In this document: positions 4,349 through 35,176 of the stretch, one piece after another
Position numbering within the stretch: position 1 is the first letter of the stretch
Layout: each line of letters begins with the position of its first letter
From: Deltaproteobacteria bacterium
GTDB lineage: Bacteria; Desulfobacterota; Syntrophia; Syntrophales; UBA8958
Direction: 5' to 3'
NCBI GenBank assembly: GCA_029553375.1
Contig: JAKPCH010000007.1
Location: forward strand, 1 to 49,901
Length of the DNA: 49,901 nt
Program-made: the position numbers and the translations under genes
Notes under the pieces: model-generated
The model's database searches: none
What the model was told of the DNA's origin: nothing
The model's input: only the letters and a program-made list of their open reading frames with translations

Positions 4349-4376
4349 TAAAGTTTTTGCCCCCCCGTGCCGATGT
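4349..4376 (+). promoter_or_regulatory. Sigma28 (FliA) promoter of flaG
   Basis: TAAAGTTT (4349-4356), 12 nt, GCCGATGT (4369-4376). The -35 is a perfect match and the -10 differs only at the end. It lies 26 nt upstream of the flaG ATG at 4403 and just after the fliT-like stop. Confidence 0.78.
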
Positions 4377-4402
4377 AGGGATTGAAAAAGGGGTTTCGGT
4401 AT

Positions 4403-4747
4403 ATGCAGGTCGGAGCGTTGAACACCATCATCAAGGACGGTTTGACCAAACCGCCACCGGAGGCCGGGGAGAACTTCAGTTCCCCGCGCCGGGATGACGG
4501 CGGTGGGGCCGCGGCGGTCGCCGAGGAGGCCGTCGCCTCCGTCGTGGAGGAGATGCAGGCCCGCGTCAACGGCCTGAATCTTAAGGTGGAGTACACCACC
4601 TACGGGGAAAAGGGGGAGAGGGTCGCCATCGTCGTCAGCGACCGGGAGACGGGCCGGGTGATCCGGGAGATCCCTCCCAAGGAGATCCAGCAGCTCTACC
4701 TCAGATTCCAGGAACTCCAAGGCATCCTCTTCGACCGACGGGCCTAA
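4403..4747 (+). CDS. flaG: Flagellar protein FlaG
   Basis: FlaG affects filament length and FliD function in several polar-flagellated bacteria; its mechanism is poorly defined. The 114-residue protein has a disordered Pro/Gly-rich N-terminus and a conserved C-terminal domain from about residue 45: a helix (VVEEMQARVNGLNLKVEY), then strands ending in VSDRETGRVIREIPPKE, the family's diagnostic motif. The ATG at 4403 is preferred because AAGGGG lies about 9 nt upstream, while the in-frame TTG at 4382 sits on the predicted sigma28 transcription start. It has its own sigma28 promoter and a terminator follows. Confidence 0.92.
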   Translation: MQVGALNTIIKDGLTKPPPEAGENFSSPRRDDGGGAAAVAEEAVASVVEEMQARVNGLNLKVEYTTYGEKGERVAIVVSDRETGRVIREIPPKEIQQLYLRFQELQGILFDRRA

Positions 4748-13782: not shown

Positions 13783-13798
13783 TGCAATAGGTATGCCA
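13783..13798 (-). promoter_or_regulatory. Sigma54 promoter of the flgF rod/ring operon
   Basis: Minus strand TGGCATACCTATTGCA with exact GG-N10-GC, 32 nt before the flgF ATG. Confidence 0.82.
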
Positions 13799-13957: not shown

Positions 13958-14260
13958 TCAATCCGTTGACGAATGGGGGCGTCTCTTCTCGTTCAGACGG
14001 TAGACGAACGCCAAGATCTCGGCGACGGCCCGGTAGACCTTGGGAGGTATCTCCTCGTCCAGGTCGAGGCGGTAGAGGATCTGGACCAGGTGGGGGTCTT
14101 CCTTGATGGGGATGTCGTGCTTCTTCGCCAGGGCGATGATCTTTTCCGCGATGAACCCCCGCCCCTTGGCCGTGACCTTGGGGGCCCGGTCCTTCCCGGG
14201 GTCGTAGCGGAGGGCGGCGGCGAGGGGAGGCCGTTTCTCCCTTTTCCCCGTCTCAGGCAT
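13958..14260 (-). CDS. FlhB C-terminal-domain-like protein
   Basis: A 100-residue stand-alone protein resembling the cytoplasmic tail of FlhB. A-A-A-L-R-Y-D matches the segment after NPTH in FlhB, and [20 protein letters not shown] and [16 protein letters not shown] match the rest. The NPTH autocleavage site itself is missing. Such proteins (FhlB/YlqH) occur in many flagellar loci and may substitute for the released FlhB tail in export switching. Its start overlaps the fliK-like stop. Last of a four-gene tail behind a sigma28 site. Confidence 0.9.
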
Positions 14261-15395
14261 AGAGGCTCATGGCGGGGCCGCGGTTGATCACGTGTCCCTC
14301 GGCGTATTCACGGCGGCGTTGACCGAGGCGGGTGTCGACGGCGAGTTGGACCTCCCGGGCCTCGAGGCCCGCCGCCTCCAAGCCCCCCCGGAGTTCCGTC
14401 AGGAAGGGGGCGATGAAGGCCCCCGCCTCCTCGTCGCCGCAGGTGAGGCGGCAGCTGAGGGAGTCGCCCCTCATGGTCACCTCCGCCATGATCTCCCCCA
14501 GGTTGTCCATGTCGAGGAAAAGGACGAAGCGGTAGGAACCGTCTGTCTCCCCCTCCCTGTTCCCGCCTTCCCCCTCGACGTAGAGCTCCTGGAGGCGGAC
14601 GCCCCCGGGGAAGGCGGCGGGCAGGAAGAGGAGGTAAGGGCTGCCCCCTTCCCTGGCCAAGACGTTTATGACCTGCTGGGTCTCGATGGCCGAGAGGGAG
14701 GAGTTGAGGATTCCGAGGAGGTCCGCCGTCCCCTTTCCTTCGGCCGCGCCTTCCGCCCCCCGGGCCGCTGAGTCTCCCAGGGCCCGTTCCAGGCGGGCTA
14801 TCATGCCCTTCAGGCCCTCGTATCGTTTTAAGTTCCTGAGGTCTTTTTGGTTTTCGAGGGCGAGAAAGAGCCCCCTCTCCAGGAGGAGACCCAGATGGCG
14901 GGCGAAATCCTCGACGAGGGATCCCGCGTCGGGACCCTGGGGGCTCAGGACGAGGGAGTTGAGGAGGTCCCGGGCCCTCCCGGCCAGGTCGGCGACCTCC
15001 GGCGGCCAGGCCGTCGCCTCTTCGGCCGTCAGGGCCTGGGGAAGGAGGGCGAAGAGGTCCCGCAGGGCCTGGGGGGCCATGCGGTGGAGGAGAAGGTGGC
15101 GGCTCGCCGTCGCTGCCTCGGGGTAAGCGTCCCGGACGACCTGGAGGACCGTCTGGGCCCCCGTTTCGGTCACCCGCAAAAGGAGTTTATCCCCCGCCCC
15201 TAAGGAGAGGTCCGTCTGGGCCGTCAGGGGGTGGTTGCCGATGCGGATCAGGACCCGGCCGCCCCCCAGGTCCTCCATGACGAGACCTTCCACGAGGGCG
15301 CCCCGGACGAAGAGGGCCCCCTGGCGCTCCGGCGTGTCCGTCGTGATTCGGAAGATCCCGGGTACGGGGCTGGGGGGTGTGAGGGGGGTGATCAT
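14253..15395 (-). CDS. Second FliK-like hook-length-control-domain protein
   Basis: A 380-residue protein, distinct from the large FliK at 32859. The C-terminal ~110 residues match the Flg_hook domain that touches Flh[23 protein letters not shown], then [13 protein letters not shown]. The N-terminal part has a small beta domain ([21 protein letters not shown]) and a helical middle. It lacks the Pro/Thr-rich ruler of FliK. Adjacent to the FlhB-tail protein, it may form a partner pair acting late (inference). It overlaps the next gene by 4-8 nt on both sides. Confidence 0.8.
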
Positions 15396-15871
15396 GACCC
15401 TTCTTTAGTATCCCCTCCCTGGCGGAGGCGGGTGATGAGCTCCACCTCCCCCGCCGTCAGGCCGAGGCGGCCGGCTATCTCCTGGCTCGATAGTCCCGCG
15501 GCACGGAGCCTCAGGACCTCCCCATAGGCGTCCTCCGCAGGGGGAAAAGGACGATCCGGCTTTTCGTCGAGGCGCCTCAGGAGGTCCTCGGCCCTCTCGA
15601 CGAGGTCCCTGAGGCGCCGCTCCTTCTCGTCAAGGGAAAAGGCGAGGGATTTCAAAGTTTTGCGTCCCTCTTCCAGGGACTCGACAAACTGGGTGCTAAG
15701 CCTCTGGGACTCGTTGACGAGGTCCCTCAGGGCGGTAACCTCCTCCTTCGCGACGGAGGGGGTCCGGTCTCTCTTTGCCGAACGGCCGACGTACCAGAAG
15801 AAGGCCCCGATCAGAACCAACAGGGCCACGTCGAGGACGAGCTGGATGATGAGGAGGTTATGGATGGTCAT
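15392..15871 (-). CDS. Membrane-anchored coiled-coil/HTH protein (DUF2802- or SwrB-like)
   Basis: A 159-residue protein with three visible parts: an N-terminal membrane helix (about residues 5-28, LLIIQLVLDVALLVLIGAFF), a charged coiled coil (40-105) and a C-terminal helix-turn-helix-like domain (L-R-A-A-G-L-S-S-Q-E-I-A-G-R-L-G-L-T, about 125-143). The same architecture is known for SwrB, which activates export-apparatus assembly in Bacillus and sits at the end of its fla/che operon, and for DUF2802 proteins. Function here is unproven. The start is one base from the previous stop; the end overlaps the fliK-like gene. Confidence 0.7.
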   Translation of the reverse strand: MTIHNLLIIQLVLDVALLVLIGAFFWYVGRSAKRDRTPSVAKEEVTALRDLVNESQRLSTQFVESLEEGRKTLKSLAFSLDEKERRLRDLVERAEDLLRRLDEKPDRPFPPAEDAYGEVLRLRAAGLSSQEIAGRLGLTAGEVELITRLRQGGDTKEGS

Positions 15872-15872
15872 C

Positions 15873-16196
15873 TCAGGCCTTGATGTCGATATGGACCTTA
15901 CCCTTCTCCCCCGGGGCGGTCGCCGCCGGCGATCCCTCCGGCGCAGGTTGAGGGTTGTCGCCGCCTTCCCGGCGCCCCTTCCTGCCTCTCCCCTCCCGTT
16001 CCTCCTCTTCCCGGAGGCGGAGGAGTTCCGCTTCGTCCGTGTCCCGCACCCGTTCCTTCTGGCGTTTCCTCTCCTCGTTCAGTTGCAGGGCGAAGTGCCG
16101 CTGCTGCATGTCCGGGTGCTGCTGCTGGACCTGCTGGATCTTCTCCGCCACGTGGATCTGGGCGATGGATTGCTGAAGATCGACGGGCTTCAACAT
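15873..16196 (-). CDS. Unrecognised charged helical protein in flagellar locus
   Basis: A 107-residue soluble protein of no family I can name. Residues 1-40 are Gln/Val-rich and helical (MLKPVDLQQSIAQIHVAEK, then Q-Q-Q-H-P-D-M-Q-Q-R). Residues 40-75 are strongly charged with Glu/Arg repeats. A disordered Gly/Pro linker leads to a short ending V-H-I-D-I-K-A. No membrane segment. The even codon use and tight coupling (1 nt) to the next gene suggest it is real. First gene after a sigma28-like site, so it may be a late flagellar protein. Confidence 0.65.
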   Translation of the reverse strand: MLKPVDLQQSIAQIHVAEKIQQVQQQHPDMQQRHFALQLNEERKRQKERVRDTDEAELLRLREEEEREGRGRKGRREGGDNPQPAPEGSPAATAPGEKGKVHIDIKA

Positions 16197-16276
16197 CGCC
16201 CCCCACCTCCCGGCGGACCCCTTTTCCCGTATCTTGCCCCTTTCCTACCCATGTGGCGACCATCCCTTCGTAGGGG

Positions 16277-16304
16277 CCTTCGGCCCCGGCGGGAAAAAAC
16301 TTTA
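16277..16304 (-). promoter_or_regulatory. Sigma28-like promoter before the four-gene tail
   Basis: Minus strand TAAAGTTT (16297-16304) overlaps the stop region of the kinase-like gene, then 12 nt, then GCCGAAGG (16277-16284). The -35 is perfect; the -10 deviates at two places. A perfect GGGGCC/GGCCCC hairpin (16273-16287) overlaps the -10. Predicted leader about 70 nt to the gene at 16196. Confidence 0.6.
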
Positions 16305-17033
16305 GGGCCTGATCCTGATGATCCACTCCCGGTAGCCGTCACCGTCGGCGATGTCCGTCTCCGCCCCCAGGGTCCGAAGGAGGCAGAGGGCCATCCGGCC
16401 CGTGTCGCCCGACAAGACGGCACCCTCGGCGTCTTCGTCAGGATAGGGATTCCGCGCCCCTGTGGCGTGGCGGAGACGGAGGACGACGTTATCCCCCTCG
16501 CGGGACGTCCATACCTGGAGGGTCTTGTCCCCGGCCTCTCTTATGGCCTGCGCCGTCGCCCGGAGGATCCCCCAGAGGGCGAGGGAATAGAAGCAGTAGC
16601 GCCCCCTGACGGGCGGGAGCTCTTCTTCGATGTGGACCTCCTTCTTGATGCGGTGTTTGAACTCCAGGTAGTGGTCGGCCAGGCGGAGCTCCGCCGCCAC
16701 GAGACGGCCCAGGGCAATCAAATCCGCCTCGTCGTTGACGATCCCCTGGAACTTGTCGGCCACGTCCCTGAACATGTCGCAGAGACGTTCCGTCTCGCCG
16801 TTGATGGAAACCACGTCCTGTCTGAGGCGTCCGATGGTCTCTTCCCAGGCGTCGGTCCCCTTTTTGCCGTTCGCCAGCTGATCGAGGCGGCGCTTCATGA
16901 TCTGCCCCCGGCCTAGGATCCCGTTCAAGGGATTGGCGAAGTTGTGGATGATCCCGGGGATCAGCTCGGAGATGAAGGTGTCGGTGAAGGCCCTCTCCAG
17001 GGCGCCGTACAGTCTCTCCTGGGTGCTTTCCAT
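16302..17033 (-). CDS. Histidine-kinase-like protein with degenerate ATP-binding region
   Basis: A 243-residue soluble protein. Residues 25-45 resemble a HisKA phospho-acceptor helix: G-I-I-H-N-F-A-N-P-L-N-G, with His30 in place and the usual E/N positions altered. A second long helix follows (Q-D-V-V-S-I-N-G-E-T-E-R-L). The C-terminal half folds in kinase-like order, but the N-box lacks its asparagine (CFYSLALWGILRATAQAI) and the G1/G2 boxes are absent or weak (TGRMALCLLRTLGAE only), so ATP binding is doubtful. It may be a phosphotransfer or scaffold protein, in the manner of ChpT (inference). It lies 15 nt after the fliL-like gene in the fliA region. Confidence 0.7.
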   Translation of the reverse strand: MESTQERLYGALERAFTDTFISELIPGIIHNFANPLNGILGRGQIMKRRLDQLANGKKGTDAWEETIGRLRQDVVSINGETERLCDMFRDVADKFQGIVNDEADLIALGRLVAAELRLADHYLEFKHRIKKEVHIEEELPPVRGRYCFYSLALWGILRATAQAIREAGDKTLQVWTSREGDNVVLRLRHATGARNPYPDEDAEGAVLSGDTGRMALCLLRTLGAETDIADGDGYREWIIRIRP

Positions 17034-17048: not shown

Positions 17049-17615
17049 TTAGAGGAGGATATAGCGGCTCGTGAATACCTCCTTGACGGCCCCGGCGCCG
17101 AGGAGGGTCTCCAGGGCCGTGGCTATTTCCCTCTTCAGGTCCTTTTTCCCCTCGGGGGTCAGGAGATCTTCCCTCTGCGCGTTCTTCAGGACCCCATAGA
17201 TGGCCCGGCGTATCTCCTCCTGACGACCCGCCGGGGCGGCGGCCCGGCCCGGGTCCGTTTCGACGACGAAACCGCAGTGGAGGATCCGCGTCCTCCCCTC
17301 CTTGTCCCGCAGGGGGAGCAGGAAGTCGTCGAACTCGTAACGCCCCCCCTGGACGACCGCTGCCGCCGGGGGGGGTGTCTTTTCCGCCGTTGTGGTAATA
17401 GGGGCCGGGGAGAGATGGTACCACATAAGACCGCCGACGGCAACGACGGCGGCCACCCCCAAGGCGATCCAGAACCACCGGCGCCGTTTTGGGGTGTCCC
17501 GGCGTTCCTCTCCCCCCTCGGGCGGCGGTTCTGCAGGGACGGGTTTCTCCGTCGTCCCCCCCTCGAGATTGGGGATGTCGATGACGTCTATCTGGGCCTT
17601 GCGCCTGGCGGACAC
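17049..17615 (-). CDS. Second FliL-like basal-body-associated protein
   Basis: A 188-residue protein with a cytoplasmic Pro/Arg-rich N-terminus, one membrane helix (about residues 46-66) and a periplasmic C-terminal domain. The ending, T-A-L-E-T-L-L-G-A-G-A-V-K-E-V-F-T-S-R-Y-I-L, matches the FliL C-terminal pattern (V..VyfteFvvQ in the main FliL). FliL-family proteins ring the stator and help its activation. This copy lies 12 nt after fliA, away from fliM. The domain is shorter and diverged, so the exact role is open. Confidence 0.75.
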   Translation of the reverse strand: MSARRKAQIDVIDIPNLEGGTTEKPVPAEPPPEGGEERRDTPKRRRWFWIALGVAAVVAVGGLMWYHLSPAPITTTAEKTPPPAAAVVQGGRYEFDDFLLPLRDKEGRTRILHCGFVVETDPGRAAAPAGRQEEIRRAIYGVLKNAQREDLLTPEGKKDLKREIATALETLLGAGAVKEVFTSRYILL

Positions 17616-17627
17616 GGTTTCGTCACC

Positions 17628-18356
17628 TCACGCCTCTTCCCCCGTGAAGGCCCTCAGGGCTCCCCGGAGGCGCAGGATGGCCTGGGAATGGAGTTGGCAG
17701 ACCCGGGATTCCGTAAGCCTCAGGACCTGCCCCACCTCCTTCATCGTCAACTCCTCGTAATAGTAGAGGGACATGACGAGGCGCTCCTTTTCCGGGAGGT
17801 CCTCGATGGCCTTGACGAGGGCGTGTCTCATCTCCTCGTTCGCCAGCAGGTCGAGGGGGTTGCCCCGATCGACCGTATCGAGCCAGTTGTCGTCGGCATG
17901 GTTGTCGATGTATTCCGGGGCGACCTCGTCGGCGCTGATCAAGGTGAAGGCCTGGGCCTCGTTTATGAGTTCGTGGTACTCGTCGAGGTCGATCCCGAGA
18001 TGCTCGGCCACCTCCTCCTCCGTCGGCGGCCGCTTGAGCTCCTTCCTCAGGGTCTGGAAGGCCTTCTCCATCCTGTTATCCTTCGCCCGGACGGACCGGG
18101 GTACGAAATCGTAGGACCGCAACTCGTCCAGGACGGCGCCGCGGATACGGAACTTGGCGTAGGTCTCGAAACGGATGTTCCGGGACGGGTCGAACTTGTC
18201 GAGGGCATCCATGAGGCCGATGATCCCGGCGTTCACGAGGGCCTCCTTGTCCGCCCCGTCGAGGGGCATGCGGGCCGTCAGGCGCGCCACGACGTTCTTC
18301 ACCAGGGGGGCGTACTGCATGATGAGTTCGTTGCGCTTCCCTTTATCCAAGGCCAT
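17628..18356 (-). CDS. fliA: Flagellar sigma factor FliA (sigma28)
   Basis: FliA directs RNA polymerase to late flagellar promoters. The 242-residue protein shows region 2 (Y-A-P-L-V-K-N-V-V-A-R-L near 16-27; D-A-L-D-K-F-D-P-S-R-N-I-R-F-E-T-Y-A near 49-66; R-G-A-V-L-D-E-L-R near 71), region 3 and region 4 with an HTH (L-T-M-K-E-V-G-Q-V-L-R-L-T-E-S-R-V-C-Q-L). Its targets in this window are the TAAA-N16-GCCGA sites. The start overlaps the flhG end by 14 nt, so it is expressed with the sigma54-driven motA export operon. Confidence 0.97.
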   Translation of the reverse strand: MALDKGKRNELIMQYAPLVKNVVARLTARMPLDGADKEALVNAGIIGLMDALDKFDPSRNIRFETYAKFRIRGAVLDELRSYDFVPRSVRAKDNRMEKAFQTLRKELKRPPTEEEVAEHLGIDLDEYHELINEAQAFTLISADEVAPEYIDNHADDNWLDTVDRGNPLDLLANEEMRHALVKAIEDLPEKERLVMSLYYYEELTMKEVGQVLRLTESRVCQLHSQAILRLRGALRAFTGEEA

Positions 18357-22498: not shown

Positions 22499-23572
22499 TC
22501 ATCCAACCCGCCCGTTCCTCAGGGCGTAAACGTAAGCCAGGATCTCGGCGACGGCGCGATAGAGGTTCTCGGGGATCGCCCCGTCCACATCCACCAGCTT
22601 ATACAATACCCGTGCCACCTCCCTGTTCTCCACGACGGGGACGCGGTGCTCCCGGGCCAGCTCCTTGATCCGTTCCGCCACGTGGCCCGCCCCCTTGGCG
22701 ACCACGACGGGGGCGGACATGAAAGCGGCGTCGTACCTGAGGGCCACGGCCAGGTGGGTGGGGTTGGTGATGACCACGTCGGCCTTGGGCACGGCGGCCA
22801 TCATCCTCTTCCTGGCGGCCTCCCGCTGGAGACGGCGGATCCTGCCCTTGACGAGGGGGTCGCCCTCCGTCTGCTTGTGCTCGTCCTTCACCTCCTGCCT
22901 CGTCATGCGGAGGTTCTTTTCGTGTTCCCACCGTTGGTAGAGGTAGTCGCCCACGGCCAGGACCAGCAGGAGCCAGCAGACGTTGCCGAGGATGACAAAG
23001 GAATTGGTCCCCAAGAAGCTCAGGACCTGCCAGGGACCCTGGGCCATGAGGGGGAGGATCCCGGGAATCTCGGAGCGGATGGAGAGATAGGCCACGACGC
23101 CGACGAAGCAGATCTTGGCCGTGTTTTTCGTCAGTTCCACCCAAGCCCGGGGACCGAAGAGGTTCTTGGCCCCCTTGAGGGGGTTGATCTTCCCGAGGCG
23201 GGGCAGGACGGGCTCGGCGGAGAAGATGAACCCCACCTGGAGGAGGTTGGCCAGGATCGTCACGGTGACGACGACCAGGAAAAGGGGCAGGAGCATGACG
23301 AGGACCCCCCCCGCGACGGAGGCGAAGAGGGGGAGGACGTCCTGGGCGTTGAGGGGGGTGACGGCGGCGCGGCTCAGGATGGTGGAGGTCATGGACATCA
23401 GCTTCCGGAGGAGGTCCGAGGCGTTGAAATACATGAAGACCAGGACGCCCCCCAGGATGGCCACGGAGGGGATTTCCCGGCTCTTCGCCACCTGCCCCTT
23501 CTTGTGGGTGTCCTCGCGGCGCTTGGGTGTCGCTTGTTCTGTTCGTTCCTGGTCCCGGTCGCCCTCGGCCAT
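22499..23572 (-). CDS. flhB: Flagellar export switch protein FlhB
   Basis: FlhB sets export specificity, switching from rod/hook to filament substrates after contact with FliK. The 357-residue protein has an N-terminal cytoplasmic segment (R-T-E-Q-A-T-P-K-R-R-E-D), four membrane helices (about 35-55, 85-110, 150-165, 190-210) and a C-terminal domain with the self-cleaving motif NPTH at residues 270-273. The tail that follows matches the stand-alone protein at 13958. It lies between fliR and flhA. Confidence 0.98.
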   Translation of the reverse strand: MAEGDRDQERTEQATPKRREDTHKKGQVAKSREIPSVAILGGVLVFMYFNASDLLRKLMSMTSTILSRAAVTPLNAQDVLPLFASVAGGVLVMLLPLFLVVVTVTILANLLQVGFIFSAEPVLPRLGKINPLKGAKNLFGPRAWVELTKNTAKICFVGVVAYLSIRSEIPGILPLMAQGPWQVLSFLGTNSFVILGNVCWLLLVLAVGDYLYQRWEHEKNLRMTRQEVKDEHKQTEGDPLVKGRIRRLQREAARKRMMAAVPKADVVITNPTHLAVALRYDAAFMSAPVVVAKGAGHVAERIKELAREHRVPVVENREVARVLYKLVDVDGAIPENLYRAVAEILAYVYALRNGRVG

Positions 23573-27319: not shown

Positions 27320-27820
27320 CTATTGGACGACGAACTCGGTGAAGTAGACGCGGGACACCTTGGTGGTGTTGAGGAAACTGTTGAGGCGCATGGCGATCTC
27401 CTCCCGGAGGCGCTGTTTCCCCGCGACGTCCATGAGCTCTTGGTAGGTCTTGGCCGACAGGAGGTCGAGGATGTTGTCCCTGAGCTTCGGTTTCAAAAGG
27501 TCCAGCTCCTTGACGCCCTGAGGATCGGAGATCTCGAGCTGGATGACCAGCTTGAGGTACCGCTCGGCGTTGGCGTCCCGGAGGTTGATGATGAAGGGAT
27601 CCATGGGCCAGACGGTCCCGATCTGGGCGGGCGGTGGTGAAGCGGCCTTCTTCGTCGGGGCGAGGATGACGAGATAGTAGTAGGCCCCGCCCGCGACGGC
27701 ACCGGCGACGACGAGGAGAGCCGCGCCGATGATCAACCACTTGACGAGGGGCTTCTTCTTGCCCTCCTGTTCCTGTTTCCCCTTGTCTTCCTGTTCTTCG
27801 TCACGACCAGCTTTGGCCAT
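27320..27820 (-). CDS. fliL: Flagellar basal-body protein FliL
   Basis: FliL surrounds the stator in the inner membrane and supports torque at high load. The 166-residue protein has a charged cytoplasmic N-terminus, one membrane helix (about 26-52) and a periplasmic domain ending in V-S-R-V-Y-F-T-E-F-V-V-Q, the family terminus. The ATG at 27820 follows AAGGAGG at good spacing. The upstream TTG in frame at 27835 would overlap the motB-like stop and is less likely. Confidence 0.94.
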   Translation of the reverse strand: MAKAGRDEEQEDKGKQEQEGKKKPLVKWLIIGAALLVVAGAVAGGAYYYLVILAPTKKAASPPPAQIGTVWPMDPFIINLRDANAERYLKLVIQLEISDPQGVKELDLLKPKLRDNILDLLSAKTYQELMDVAGKQRLREEIAMRLNSFLNTTKVSRVYFTEFVVQ

Positions 27821-27831
27821 CACTGCCTCCT

Positions 27832-28518
27832 TCAAGGTTTTTCCATCGTTATGGTCATCGTCACGGGCCGGTAGTCCTCCCCACCCTCAGGCGACGGGGG
27901 GGTGACGGTGAGGTTGATCCTCTCCGGGCTCAACCCGCCCCCCGCGGTGAGGAAGTCGGCCACGGCGGCGCCGGCGCGGTGAGGGGCATCCCCCGCCGAC
28001 CGGGGTGCCTCCAGGGTCACGAAGGCCCCCGCGCCGCGGGCGGGACCGGAGACCGCCGCCAGGAGGGCGGCGCCGTGGTCCGTGAGGGCCGCCGAAGACG
28101 GATCGAAGAGGGCCGCCGCGGGGATCCTGATGGTGACGCTGCCGGGGATCCGGGCGCAGAAGACGTAGGGGTGCCCCGCCAGGACCGTTTTGAGGCCCTC
28201 GTGGAGAGCGGCGAGCCTGAGTTCCCTCTCCGCCTCCCGGCGCGCCTTCTCCGTCTCGATCCCCCGGTCCGACAGGGGCCCCACGAGGGGCGAAAGGATC
28301 CTCGCCGCCCCGGCGGTCTCCGCCCCGAGGGCCCGGCGGACCGAGGCGGCGGCGTCCTTCAGGAACTCGCCCCTGACGCTGGAGAAGGCGATGATGAGGA
28401 CGAAGAAGGTAAAGAGGAGGGTCAAGAGGTCGTTGAAGGTGACGAGCCAGCCCTCGGCCTGCCCGGTCGCACCCGCCTCTTTCGTTGGCTTTCTCAGTGT
28501 CGGATACATCTTCACCAA
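27832..28518 (-). CDS. MotB-like stator protein with proton-binding Asp
   Basis: A 228-residue protein with a MotB/PomB-type plug and single membrane helix: G-W-L-V-T-F-N-D-L-L-T-L-L-F-T-F-F-V (residues 23-40), in which Asp30 is the predicted ion-binding residue. The periplasmic part has an OmpA-like order (I-R-I-P-A-A-A-L-F-D-P-S-S-A-A-L-T, then a C-terminal strand region) but is short, and the usual peptidoglycan-binding TD..R..N signature is not clear. It lies 13 nt before fliL, 6 nt after the other MotB-like gene. Probable partner of the MotA at 29117. Confidence 0.82.
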   Translation of the reverse strand: MVKMYPTLRKPTKEAGATGQAEGWLVTFNDLLTLLFTFFVLIIAFSSVRGEFLKDAAASVRRALGAETAGAARILSPLVGPLSDRGIETEKARREAERELRLAALHEGLKTVLAGHPYVFCARIPGSVTIRIPAAALFDPSSAALTDHGAALLAAVSGPARGAGAFVTLEAPRSAGDAPHRAGAAVADFLTAGGGLSPERINLTVTPPSPEGGEDYRPVTMTITMEKP

Positions 28519-32858: not shown

Positions 32859-35126
32859 TCAGGCGAAGAGACTGAGCGTCCCCGTGCCGGGGCCCGGGGG
32901 GGTGTCCTGGTATGACGGGGCGGGTTGGTTGATGCCGCCTCCCTTGTCCTGTCCTTTGCCGGACCAGCCGCCGGCGGGACCTTCGCCGCCCGTCTGGCCC
33001 GGCGAGCCGCTGAAGGTATGGGCGCCGCCGCCGTTACCCGTATCGGCCGGGCGGTCGTAGACGATGTCGATGGAGCCCACCTGGAGGCCCTGATGCCGGA
33101 GGTTATCCTCGAGGTCCCCCAGGTGTCCCCTCAAGAGGCCCTGGACCTGTTCGTTTTCGACCCTCATCGTGACGTCCACCTGGCGGCCCCGGACGGTGAC
33201 CTCCATGGTGACCCTCCCCAGGCTCTCGGGTTGGAGACGGAGGCGCACCCTTCCCCCCTCGCCCCTGAAGGCGGCCAGGCCGTCCATGACCTGGGCGATG
33301 ACGGGTCGGGGGGAAGCGGCGGCCTCGCCCTTCTGGGCCGGGGCGGTTTTGGAGAAATCCGTATCGGGGGTGAAGACCGCCGTCGTCGGGGAGCGCCCGG
33401 CGTCGTCGTCAGGGCGGCCGGCCTCCCCGTCACGGAAAGGGAAGGGTCCGGAGCCGTCGCCCCGGACGGGCGCGGTGACACTACCGGCGAAGGGGAGGGA
33501 CCGTTCCCCGCTTTTACCTTCCGGGGCGGCTTGGGGCGTCGGCCTTTCCGCCGCCTTCCCGTGGGTCCCCTCCCCGACGGGGTTTTGGTGGGGGAAGGCC
33601 ATCGGCCCGGGGGAGGGGCGTTCGGCGATCCCCCCTTCGGGGACGGGGACGGCCTTGGCGGTTTGACGGGGATCAAAAAGATCAGGCGCGGCAGCCTGGA
33701 CAGCGGCAGGCGGCGGGGCGGTCCCGGTCAGGGTGTGGTCTCGGCCTGGAGGGGGTGCGATGGGGCGCGCGAGGTCTCCCGGGGCGGTCCTGGCGGTGGT
33801 GGCGCCACCGTCCGGTTCCGTGTCGCCGGGGATGGTGAAGGTCTCCGCCTCGGGCATTGGCCTGGCCCCTGTCGTTTTCGCGGCAGGCAGGTTGTTGTCC
33901 GCCGCGGCATCGGCGTCGTCCCCGGCGGTGCGGGCGATCCGGTTCTCGTCCGTCACGGTGACGCCGGTGCGGTTGTTGGAGACGGTCTCGAAAAGGACGA
34001 TCCGGTCGAAAAGGGAAGCAGGTCGTGTTCCCCGGCTGGTCTGGGGACCATTGCCTCTTTCCGCCGCCTCCGCGACGTATCGGCCCTCTTTCGCCCCGGT
34101 GAAGAACGGCGGCAAACCGGCGGGTATCGCCTTGGCCCCTGTCGTTTCCCCGGCCGGCCGGCGGTTGCCCACTACGGCCTGGGTTAGCCCGGCGGAGGGG
34201 GTGACCCGGTTGTCGTTTATTTCGGTAACGCCGGCAGTAGTAGTTTTGACACCGGGGCGCTCGGGAGAGGCGGCCTTCAAGGTCTCCCGGGGGCCGACAG
34301 GAAGATCGGGCTCCGTGGCCTGGACAGCGTCAGGCGGCGGCGGGGCGGTCCCGGCCAGGGTGTGGTCTCGGCCTGGAGGGGATGCGATGGGGCGCGCGAG
34401 GTCTCCCGGGGCTGTCTTGGCGTCGGCGCCTTCACTATCCATCGGGGGCGTCTTGTCCTGGTGGAGGGTAAAGGGTTTCTCCGCGGGCATCGACACGGCG
34501 ATCGAAGTTTCCCCGGCCGGCCGGCGGTTGATTGTAGGGGCGTCGGCGGCTTGAGCTGCGGGACGTTCCGTCGAGGCCTCTTGGATCTCGGGGGTTAGAC
34601 CCGCCGGGACGGGGGGAGAAAGTTTTTCCTCCCCGAGCCGCGACACGTAAACGTAACCCATCTGAGAGTTCTTAAACCCGGAGACCGCCTCCCGTCCCTC
34701 GGGGGGCCGCGCGGACCCCGGCAGGGGTTCCCCGGATGCCCCGATCATCTCCGCGAGGCCCTCCGCGGGGGCCGCCGCGGCGGGTGCGGGGGTCGGCCCG
34801 CCGGTGACGGTCTCGAGGGGGGCTCCCTCAGACGCCGCGGGGGACAGCGGGCCTCCCTGAAGAGGGAAAACCGCCAGGGGCGGAGCCGTTGACGGGAGGT
34901 TGCCGTCCGTGACCTGTACCTCGTTTTCCACGGCGCCGTCTTGGGCGGAGACGCCCTGCCCCCCTTGCCCTGCGATGGTCGTGGGGGTCAGGCAGGCCGC
35001 GAGGAGGACGGCGAAATCAGGGAGGAGACCCCCGGGGACCTGGGGTCCCGCCGCGGTCGTTCCCAAGAAGAGATCCGCCCCGCCTGGGGGGGTGGCGATG
35101 CCGGTCTGGATCGATATATCTTGCAT
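32859..35126 (-). CDS. fliK: Hook-length control protein FliK with internal repeats
   Basis: FliK measures hook length during export and then triggers FlhB. The 755-residue protein is unusually long (enteric about 400). The Pro/Ala/Thr-rich N-terminal and central region, with no cysteine-rich or membrane parts, is the ruler. The C-terminal Flg_hook domain is clear: V-R-L-R-L-Q-P-E-S-L-G-R-V-T-M-E-V, then L-R-G-H-L-G-D-L-E-D-N-L-R. The ruler contains long repeats, including two DNA copies of about 100 bp, and three R-P-A-G-E-T-like segments. The ATG at 35126 is chosen because the upstream ATG at 35165 falls inside the sigma54 promoter. First gene of fliK-flgD-flgE. Confidence 0.93.
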   Translation of the reverse strand: MQDISIQTGIATPPGGADLFLGTTAAGPQVPGGLLPDFAVLLAACLTPTTIAGQGGQGVSAQDGAVENEVQVTDGNLPSTAPPLAVFPLQGGPLSPAASEGAPLETVTGGPTPAPAAAAPAEGLAEMIGASGEPLPGSARPPEGREAVSGFKNSQMGYVYVSRLGEEKLSPPVPAGLTPEIQEASTERPAAQAADAPTINRRPAGETSIAVSMPAEKPFTLHQDKTPPMDSEGADAKTAPGDLARPIASPPGRDHTLAGTAPPPPDAVQATEPDLPVGPRETLKAASPERPGVKTTTAGVTEINDNRVTPSAGLTQAVVGNRRPAGETTGAKAIPAGLPPFFTGAKEGRYVAEAAERGNGPQTSRGTRPASLFDRIVLFETVSNNRTGVTVTDENRIARTAGDDADAAADNNLPAAKTTGARPMPEAETFTIPGDTEPDGGATTARTAPGDLARPIAPPPGRDHTLTGTAPPPAAVQAAAPDLFDPRQTAKAVPVPEGGIAERPSPGPMAFPHQNPVGEGTHGKAAERPTPQAAPEGKSGERSLPFAGSVTAPVRGDGSGPFPFRDGEAGRPDDDAGRSPTTAVFTPDTDFSKTAPAQKGEAAASPRPVIAQVMDGLAAFRGEGGRVRLRLQPESLGRVTMEVTVRGRQVDVTMRVENEQVQGLLRGHLGDLEDNLRHQGLQVGSIDIVYDRPADTGNGGGAHTFSGSPGQTGGEGPAGGWSGKGQDKGGGINQPAPSYQDTPPGPGTGTLSLFA
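33694..33795. repeat. Direct repeat copy 1 within fliK
   Basis: About 100 bp nearly identical to 34318-34421, about 625 bp apart. Both encode a segment reading A-P-G-D-L-A-R-P-I-A-x-P-P-G-R-D-H-T-L and following residues. Confidence 0.85.
34318..34421. repeat. Direct repeat copy 2 within fliK
   Basis: Partner of 33694-33795, differing at a few bases and by a 3-bp length change near the start, which keeps the frame. Confidence 0.85.
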
Positions 35127-35160
35127 GAAATGCCCGTTCGCTTTCGTTTGCCCAATATTG

Positions 35161-35176
35161 TGCAACGCCCATGCCA
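35161..35176 (-). promoter_or_regulatory. Sigma54 promoter of fliK-flgD-flgE
   Basis: Minus strand TGGCATGGGCGTTGCA with GG-N10-GC, 35 nt before the fliK ATG at 35126. Confidence 0.83.

Follow-up and report, generated by a model that had tools for sequence, protein, structure and literature searches.

Why would a flagellar locus that already encodes a complete FliK and a complete FlhB carry a second FliK-like protein and a stand-alone piece of FlhB behind what looks like a late promoter? The hook-to-filament switch is treated as a single irreversible event that involves one FliK and one FlhB. In other bacteria, FliK flips FlhB at hook completion, FlgM leaves the cell and FliA is freed. The window that we analysed, by which we mean the whole stretch of 49,901 nucleotides, is a single flagellar locus on the minus strand. 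It runs from flgD-flgE, through fliR-flhB-flhA-flhF-flhG-fliA, a second fliL, a kinase-like gene and a four-gene block, to flgF-flgG-flgA-flgH-flgI. The block (16304-13958, minus strand) consists of a sigma28-like site followed by orfA, a swrB-like gene, fliK2 and flhX, and fliA, which encodes sigma28, is located upstream of it (17628..18356, minus strand). The four genes are all open and co-directional on the minus strand, and they overlap or abut each other, with overlaps or gaps of only a few bases. The inventory given by the original prediction, four genes behind a sigma28-like site, was borne out by the open reading frames, by Pfam and NCBIfam profiles and by a promoter scan. FliK2 and FlhX are second copies, because the main FliK (768 amino acids, ending in LSLFA; 32859..35165, minus strand) and the main FlhB, which has the NPTH motif (22499..23572, minus strand), are encoded elsewhere in the window. 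Between fliA and the block there is a second FliL-like protein (17049-17615, minus strand; PF03748, E 1e-11), additional to the FliL-like gene at 27320-27835 and found at the same place in several relatives. It is followed by a degenerate histidine-kinase-like protein (16302-17033, minus strand; HisKA at E 0.06 only; sequence IHNFANPLNGILGRGQIM), whose gene usually lies just before orfA within the taxonomic order and whose stop codon overlaps the -35 element of the sigma28 site.

FlhX (100 amino acids; 13958..14260, minus strand) corresponds to the FlhB C-terminal domain alone. Comparison with PF01312 gave a match to the C-terminal part only (positions 261-335 over 74 of the 100 amino acids, E 2e-23), with no membrane part, and the protein also matches structures of the FlhB C-terminal domain such as 3b1s. 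At the place where the main FlhB keeps ITNPTHLAVALRY, FlhX has PPLAAALRY. Both results bear out the earlier description of this gene as a stand-alone FlhB tail lacking NPTH, which here coexists with a full-length NPTH FlhB (23572-22499). A lone FlhB C-terminal domain beside a full-length FlhB is what FlhX has in common with HP1575 of H. pylori, Cj0848c and the 'FlhB-like' proteins of TIGR00789. It differs from these in belonging to a four-gene unit with a sigma28-like site in front and in its score against TIGR00789 (flhB_rel), which is 108.6 bits and thus under the cut-off of 117.35. Since that cut-off was not reached, and 0 of 148 genomes of the phylum passed it, the name 'FlhX' is descriptive here, and we do not assign the protein to TIGR00789. 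FlhX is already a named component, and 'flhX-fliK' has been mentioned for Nitratiruptor (PMC9321776); HP1575 is a 'spare part' that, according to the title of Wand 2006, permits export after deletion of the FlhB C-terminal domain. The claim that the locus is an undescribed system consequently fails for the pair: FlhX, its pairing with FliK and the 'spare part' role, the last as worded in that title, are already known.

FliK2 (380 amino acids; 14253..15395, minus strand) is predicted to contain a beta-domain (residues ~27-89), a helical domain (92-249) and a T3S4/Flg_hook domain (254-366), and it ends in the tail MSLYA. The Flg_hook (T3S4, switch) domain was matched by profile at 14334..14549 (minus strand), with a score of 30.2 bits against PF02120, whose cut-off is 29.8. 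In the AlphaFold2 model (mean pLDDT 76) all three domains are present. When this model was compared with known structures by Foldseek, the matches included the PscP switch domain 5cuk (probability 1.00, E 0.018), along with FliK 2rrl (probability 0.94, E 0.11), in a list whose other entries are unrelated and in which none reaches E 0.001. Alignment to 5cuk with VIA-align gave a Z of 6.2 over 76 residues, spanning 269-354. Matches of the N-terminal region to S1/OB-like folds (about Z 6) and to helical copper-storage bundles (Z 7.5) fall in the range of common arrangements and were rejected as signs of kinship. FliK2 shares with FliK a T3S4 domain over the Pfam cut-off and a predicted fold like that of 5cuk, and its C-terminal tail resembles that of FliK, in the copy of the window as a near match. 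It differs in being short, in having an N-terminal half that is predicted to be folded, with a beta-domain instead of the long flexible ruler, and in that its gene adjoins flhX and not flgD-flgE. The earlier wording 'without ruler' is compatible with these data, given 380 residues with a predicted folded N-terminal half, free of any long flexible region, against the 768 residues of FliK. At three loci (L066, L068 and L069) FliK2 is about 740 amino acids long, double its usual size, and still lies directly before flhX. The N-terminal part of FliK2 varies greatly; the pairing and the switch domain are constant.

Conservation of the block had been proposed as a check, and it was passed. FliK2 was found in 33 of 60 genomes of the same order, and FlhA, used as a marker of flagella, in 32 of 60. 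With the own genome left out and the lists compared by eye, FliK2 was present in 29 of 31 FlhA-positive relatives, the two relatives without it being 80-82% complete, and the order kinase-like gene-orfA-swrB-fliK2-flhX-flgF recurred in almost all loci of the same taxonomic order. In the sample of the phylum, 62 genomes carried a short FlhX; 43 of them had a PF02120 gene at most 700 nt from it, and in 42 of these 43 a further FliK was encoded elsewhere. Two FliKs occurred in 2 of the 29 FliK-bearing genomes of the phylum without a short FlhX, and in one of these two (G079) FlhX was probably missed, hidden in a long open frame. When 40 loci were read directly, fliK2 was the gene just ahead of flhX in 31-32 of them, in most cases overlapping it or no more than 25 nt away. 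A cross-phylum scan of named genomes, in which an alignment of closer FlhX sequences served as query, detected the fliK2-flhX pair also on contigs labelled Nitrospirae, Nitrospinota, Tectomicrobia, Gemmatales, Hydrogenedentota, Methylomirabilota and Firmicutes. This pairing across phyla supports the proposal that the two proteins are natural partners. Apparent FliK2-FlhX fusions (open frames of 450-526 amino acids in G075, G148, G168 and G069) were rejected, each case consisting of two separate frames. It could be argued that FliK2 and FlhX, as paralogues of core parts, are redundant back-ups of FliK and FlhB with no timing or switching role of their own, a back-up role being reported for HP1575. 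Near-universal retention in flagellate relatives, a gene order kept across phyla and the conservation of promoters and tails that we describe below make this very unlikely.

The first gene of the block encodes OrfA (107 amino acids; 15873..16196, minus strand), previously listed as an unknown charged protein. That label was right insofar as no Pfam or NCBIfam profile gave a match above cut-off, on which ground membership in a known family was rejected, but it missed a FliK-type C-terminal tail. This tail was overlooked in the original prediction and is the most novel element of the block. The predicted structure of OrfA (pTM low, 0.30) comprises two helices (4-26 and 28-74), a disordered linker and the tail. 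The tail, IDIKA (15876..15890, minus strand), is the best-conserved part of the C-terminal half: the last five columns of the OrfA alignment reach 2.8-3.5 bits, and the preceding 40 columns mostly 1-2 bits. Written as [VIL][DNS][VILF]x[AV] over the five C-terminal residues, a pattern chosen after viewing the sequences, the motif was present in 40 of 50 OrfA and 68 of 117 FliK2 proteins. It was present in 0 of 624 proteins from 16 other flagellar families of the same loci, which share genome and composition with the motif carriers. The main FliKs of the phylum fit in 17 of 20 cases, counted by eye, with ends such as LDIFA, INLFA, LDLFA and IDVHV, and E. coli FliK ends in VDIFA. As the counts indicate, FliK2 tails are looser than OrfA tails, and MSLYA of the FliK2 in the window is a near match outside the strict pattern; the FlaG of the window, compared by eye, ends in FDRRA and does not fit. 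Using a tail pattern ending in A, V or I, which catches OrfAs too diverged for the profile, we found a small charged open reading frame with the tail directly 5′ of the SwrB-like gene in 58 of 68 loci; by tail or profile, an OrfA-like protein preceded this gene directly in 63 of 68. The same search before other genes returned almost nothing, except for flhX, whose neighbour is FliK2.

In the model proposed for Salmonella, FliK brings about the switch with its final five residues, which engage the cleaved C-terminal domain of FlhB, destabilise it and eject it; the function of this trigger tail is known from Salmonella only (PMC13344023). From its sequence, the OrfA tail may bind FlhB or FlhX. 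Tails common to FliK, FliK2 and OrfA would also suit a FlhX that acts as a cytosolic sink for them, which would keep surplus FliK from triggering nascent gates too early, with no second switch taking place. FlhX is soluble, with neither membrane part nor NPTH, and its gene overlaps fliK2, which suggests that the two are translated in a coupled way; both points are in keeping with titration. Against it, export with the FlhB C-terminal domain deleted, which the title of Wand 2006 attributes to HP1575, implies that FlhX-type proteins can work at the gate itself, and we regard pure titration as distinctly unlikely.

The second gene (15392..15871, minus strand) encodes a protein with an N-terminal hydrophobic segment, a coiled coil and a C-terminal HTH-like region. 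It had been called SwrB/DUF2802-like. The comparison with DUF6115 narrowly exceeded the cut-off (27.5 bits against 27), which supports the SwrB part of the name, and that with DUF2802 remained below it (31.3 bits against 33.5). Through these family profiles it can be likened to the SwrB/DUF6115/DUF2802 proteins, with which it shares an N-terminal membrane segment, a coiled coil, an HTH-like end and a position after fliA/sigD. In the block, this gene is followed by fliK2-flhX. The setting is different in four other genomes, three from Brevibacillus and one from the Syntrophomonadaceae, which encode an OrfA homologue together with a DUF6115 protein after sigD and before rpsB-tsf-like genes; this is the place that swrB has in B. 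subtilis. One gene separates sigD from orfA-swrB there, and in the Brevibacillus locus tested (L186, 2003-3412) it is a FapA gene (PF03961). The orfA-swrB pair therefore also occurs without an adjacent fliK2-flhX, and the four-gene block is a union of two pairs, orfA-swrB and fliK2-flhX. By description, the SwrB-like protein can also be likened to Flk/Fluke of Salmonella, which acts on the specificity switch as an accessory protein anchored in the membrane (PMC13344023) and has its anchor at the opposite end.

SwrB of B. subtilis activates early export, through FliP, and not the switch, and SwrB-like proteins have been described as confined to the genus Bacillus (PMC4526659). An early role like that of SwrB is the strongest rival to a role in switching: the genes would be expressed mainly with the fliA operon, from sigma54, and would help to open the gate for rod and hook, the sigma28 site only boosting their expression. 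Besides the precedent of B. subtilis, the Firmicutes orfA-swrB pairs after sigD without fliK2-flhX and the location of the block between fliA and flgF-flgG speak for it, and the promoters bear on it from both sides. The sigma28-like promoter TAAAGTTT-N12-GCCGAAGG (16277..16304, minus strand) starts at the stop codon of the preceding gene, about 108 nt before orfA. Its weighted score is 20.5 out of 24; 100 shuffles of the region upstream produced none as high, and in the window it is the fourth best. The three better sites precede flgM, flaG and fliD, which are typical late genes, and the first 14 bases of the orfA site are those of the flgM site. Its -10 element is imperfect, GCCGAAGG instead of GCCGATAA, with an A for the last T of the pattern core; a site of the sigma28 type, TAAA-N15/16-GCCGATAA, is thus found upstream of orfA in the form admitted by the survey pattern, TAAA-N15/16-GNCGA[TA] within about 200 nt upstream. 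A perfect short inverted repeat, GGGGCCGAAGGCCCC (16270-16290, minus strand), overlaps this -10 element; it might serve as an operator, form a hairpin or simply have arisen by chance in DNA of high GC content. Elsewhere in the window, a FlaG-like gene (4349-4747, plus strand) has a strong sigma28-like site, TAAAGTTT-N12-GCCGATGT.

Across loci, sigma28-like sites preceded 25 of 54 orfA genes, including one Nitrospirae and one Nitrospinota locus, the number of independent loci being lower than 54 because some are the same genome in two collections. Before other well-sampled families of the same loci the rate was 0-3%, about 1% overall, and the kinase-like gene had such a site in 1 of 13 cases. 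Only 3 of 118 fliK2 genes had one directly upstream, and general sigma28 control of all fliK2-flhX pairs was rejected. FliA timing, as originally predicted, thus stands for about half of the orfA loci and does not extend to the pair in general. The other orfA loci, about half, without a recognisable sigma28 site, would suit early expression with the fliA operon; the conserved site before the first gene of the block argues against it, and so does flgF. A sigma54-like -24/-12 site, TGGCATACCTATTGCA (13783..13798, minus strand), an exact match, precedes flgF and marks the end of the unit formed by the block; such sites were found before flgF in 52 of 91 loci, and flgF consequently need not share the transcript of the block. 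Further sigma54-like sites lie at the start of the main fliK (35161..35176, minus strand), which belongs to the early class, and within the last part of flhB, some 100 nt ahead of flhA (22602..22617, minus strand), for the fliA operon. The latter agrees with the predicted sigma54 (RpoN) dependence of the Geobacter fliA operon (PMC2725144). With a sigma28-like site before orfA and sigma54-like sites before flgF and the main fliK, the block looks like a separate late unit among early ones, and of the two FliKs in this genome one is early and the other probably late. A terminator scan of the block and its edges gave no more sites than shuffled sequences, and read-through into the block from the upstream fliA operon is possible. 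All in all, we consider that early export activation as the main role of the block is on the whole unlikely.

The explanation that we prefer, tentatively and at a little short of an even chance, is that the block is transcribed as one unit, late in this lineage, and that its products act on the FlhB export switch. FliK from the sigma54 operon would flip FlhB at the complete hook, FlgM would exit and FliA would be free. As the promoter sequence and its conservation suggest, FliA would then transcribe orfA-swrB-fliK2-flhX. FlhX, as a soluble counterpart of the cleaved C-terminal domain of FlhB (FlhB-CC), would dock on FlhB in the place of FlhB-CC, which in Salmonella is ejected at the switch (PMC13344023). 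FliK2, with its T3S4 switch domain and trigger tail, would load, lock or remove FlhX, and OrfA, in which the same tail is borne by a helical stalk and a switch domain is lacking, might compete for the same site or guide its use. The SwrB-like protein would provide a membrane anchor. As an outcome, the export specificity of finished machines would be held or reset. Late expression, docking of FlhX in place of the ejected FlhB tail and action of FliK2 and OrfA on FlhX are what we infer, and a second switching event after hook completion is plausible from the sequence. The more specific statement, that in this and related lineages the FlhB switch is acted on again after hook completion by means of FliA-made FlhX, FliK2 and OrfA, we hold with greater reserve, as somewhat doubtful.

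The literature searched contained no mention of an OrfA family carrying a FliK-type tail, of such a family paired with SwrB-like genes across phyla, or of switch parts grouped in a sigma28-led unit; the search covered few subscription journals and is no proof of novelty. SwrB-like proteins are extended here beyond Bacillus to other phyla. The tail common to OrfA and FliK suggests a place in the export-switch machinery for a small protein that is widespread but unannotated, and it provides a concrete target of five residues for mutation. Conserved spare switch parts that are probably expressed only after the switch would make later maintenance, repair or reset of export specificity testable. 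If action on the switch is indeed repeated, OrfA would be an effector of a new class, consisting of no more than a helical stalk and a FliK trigger tail, the export specificity of the finished machine would be set or reset, and switching would not be one irreversible event.
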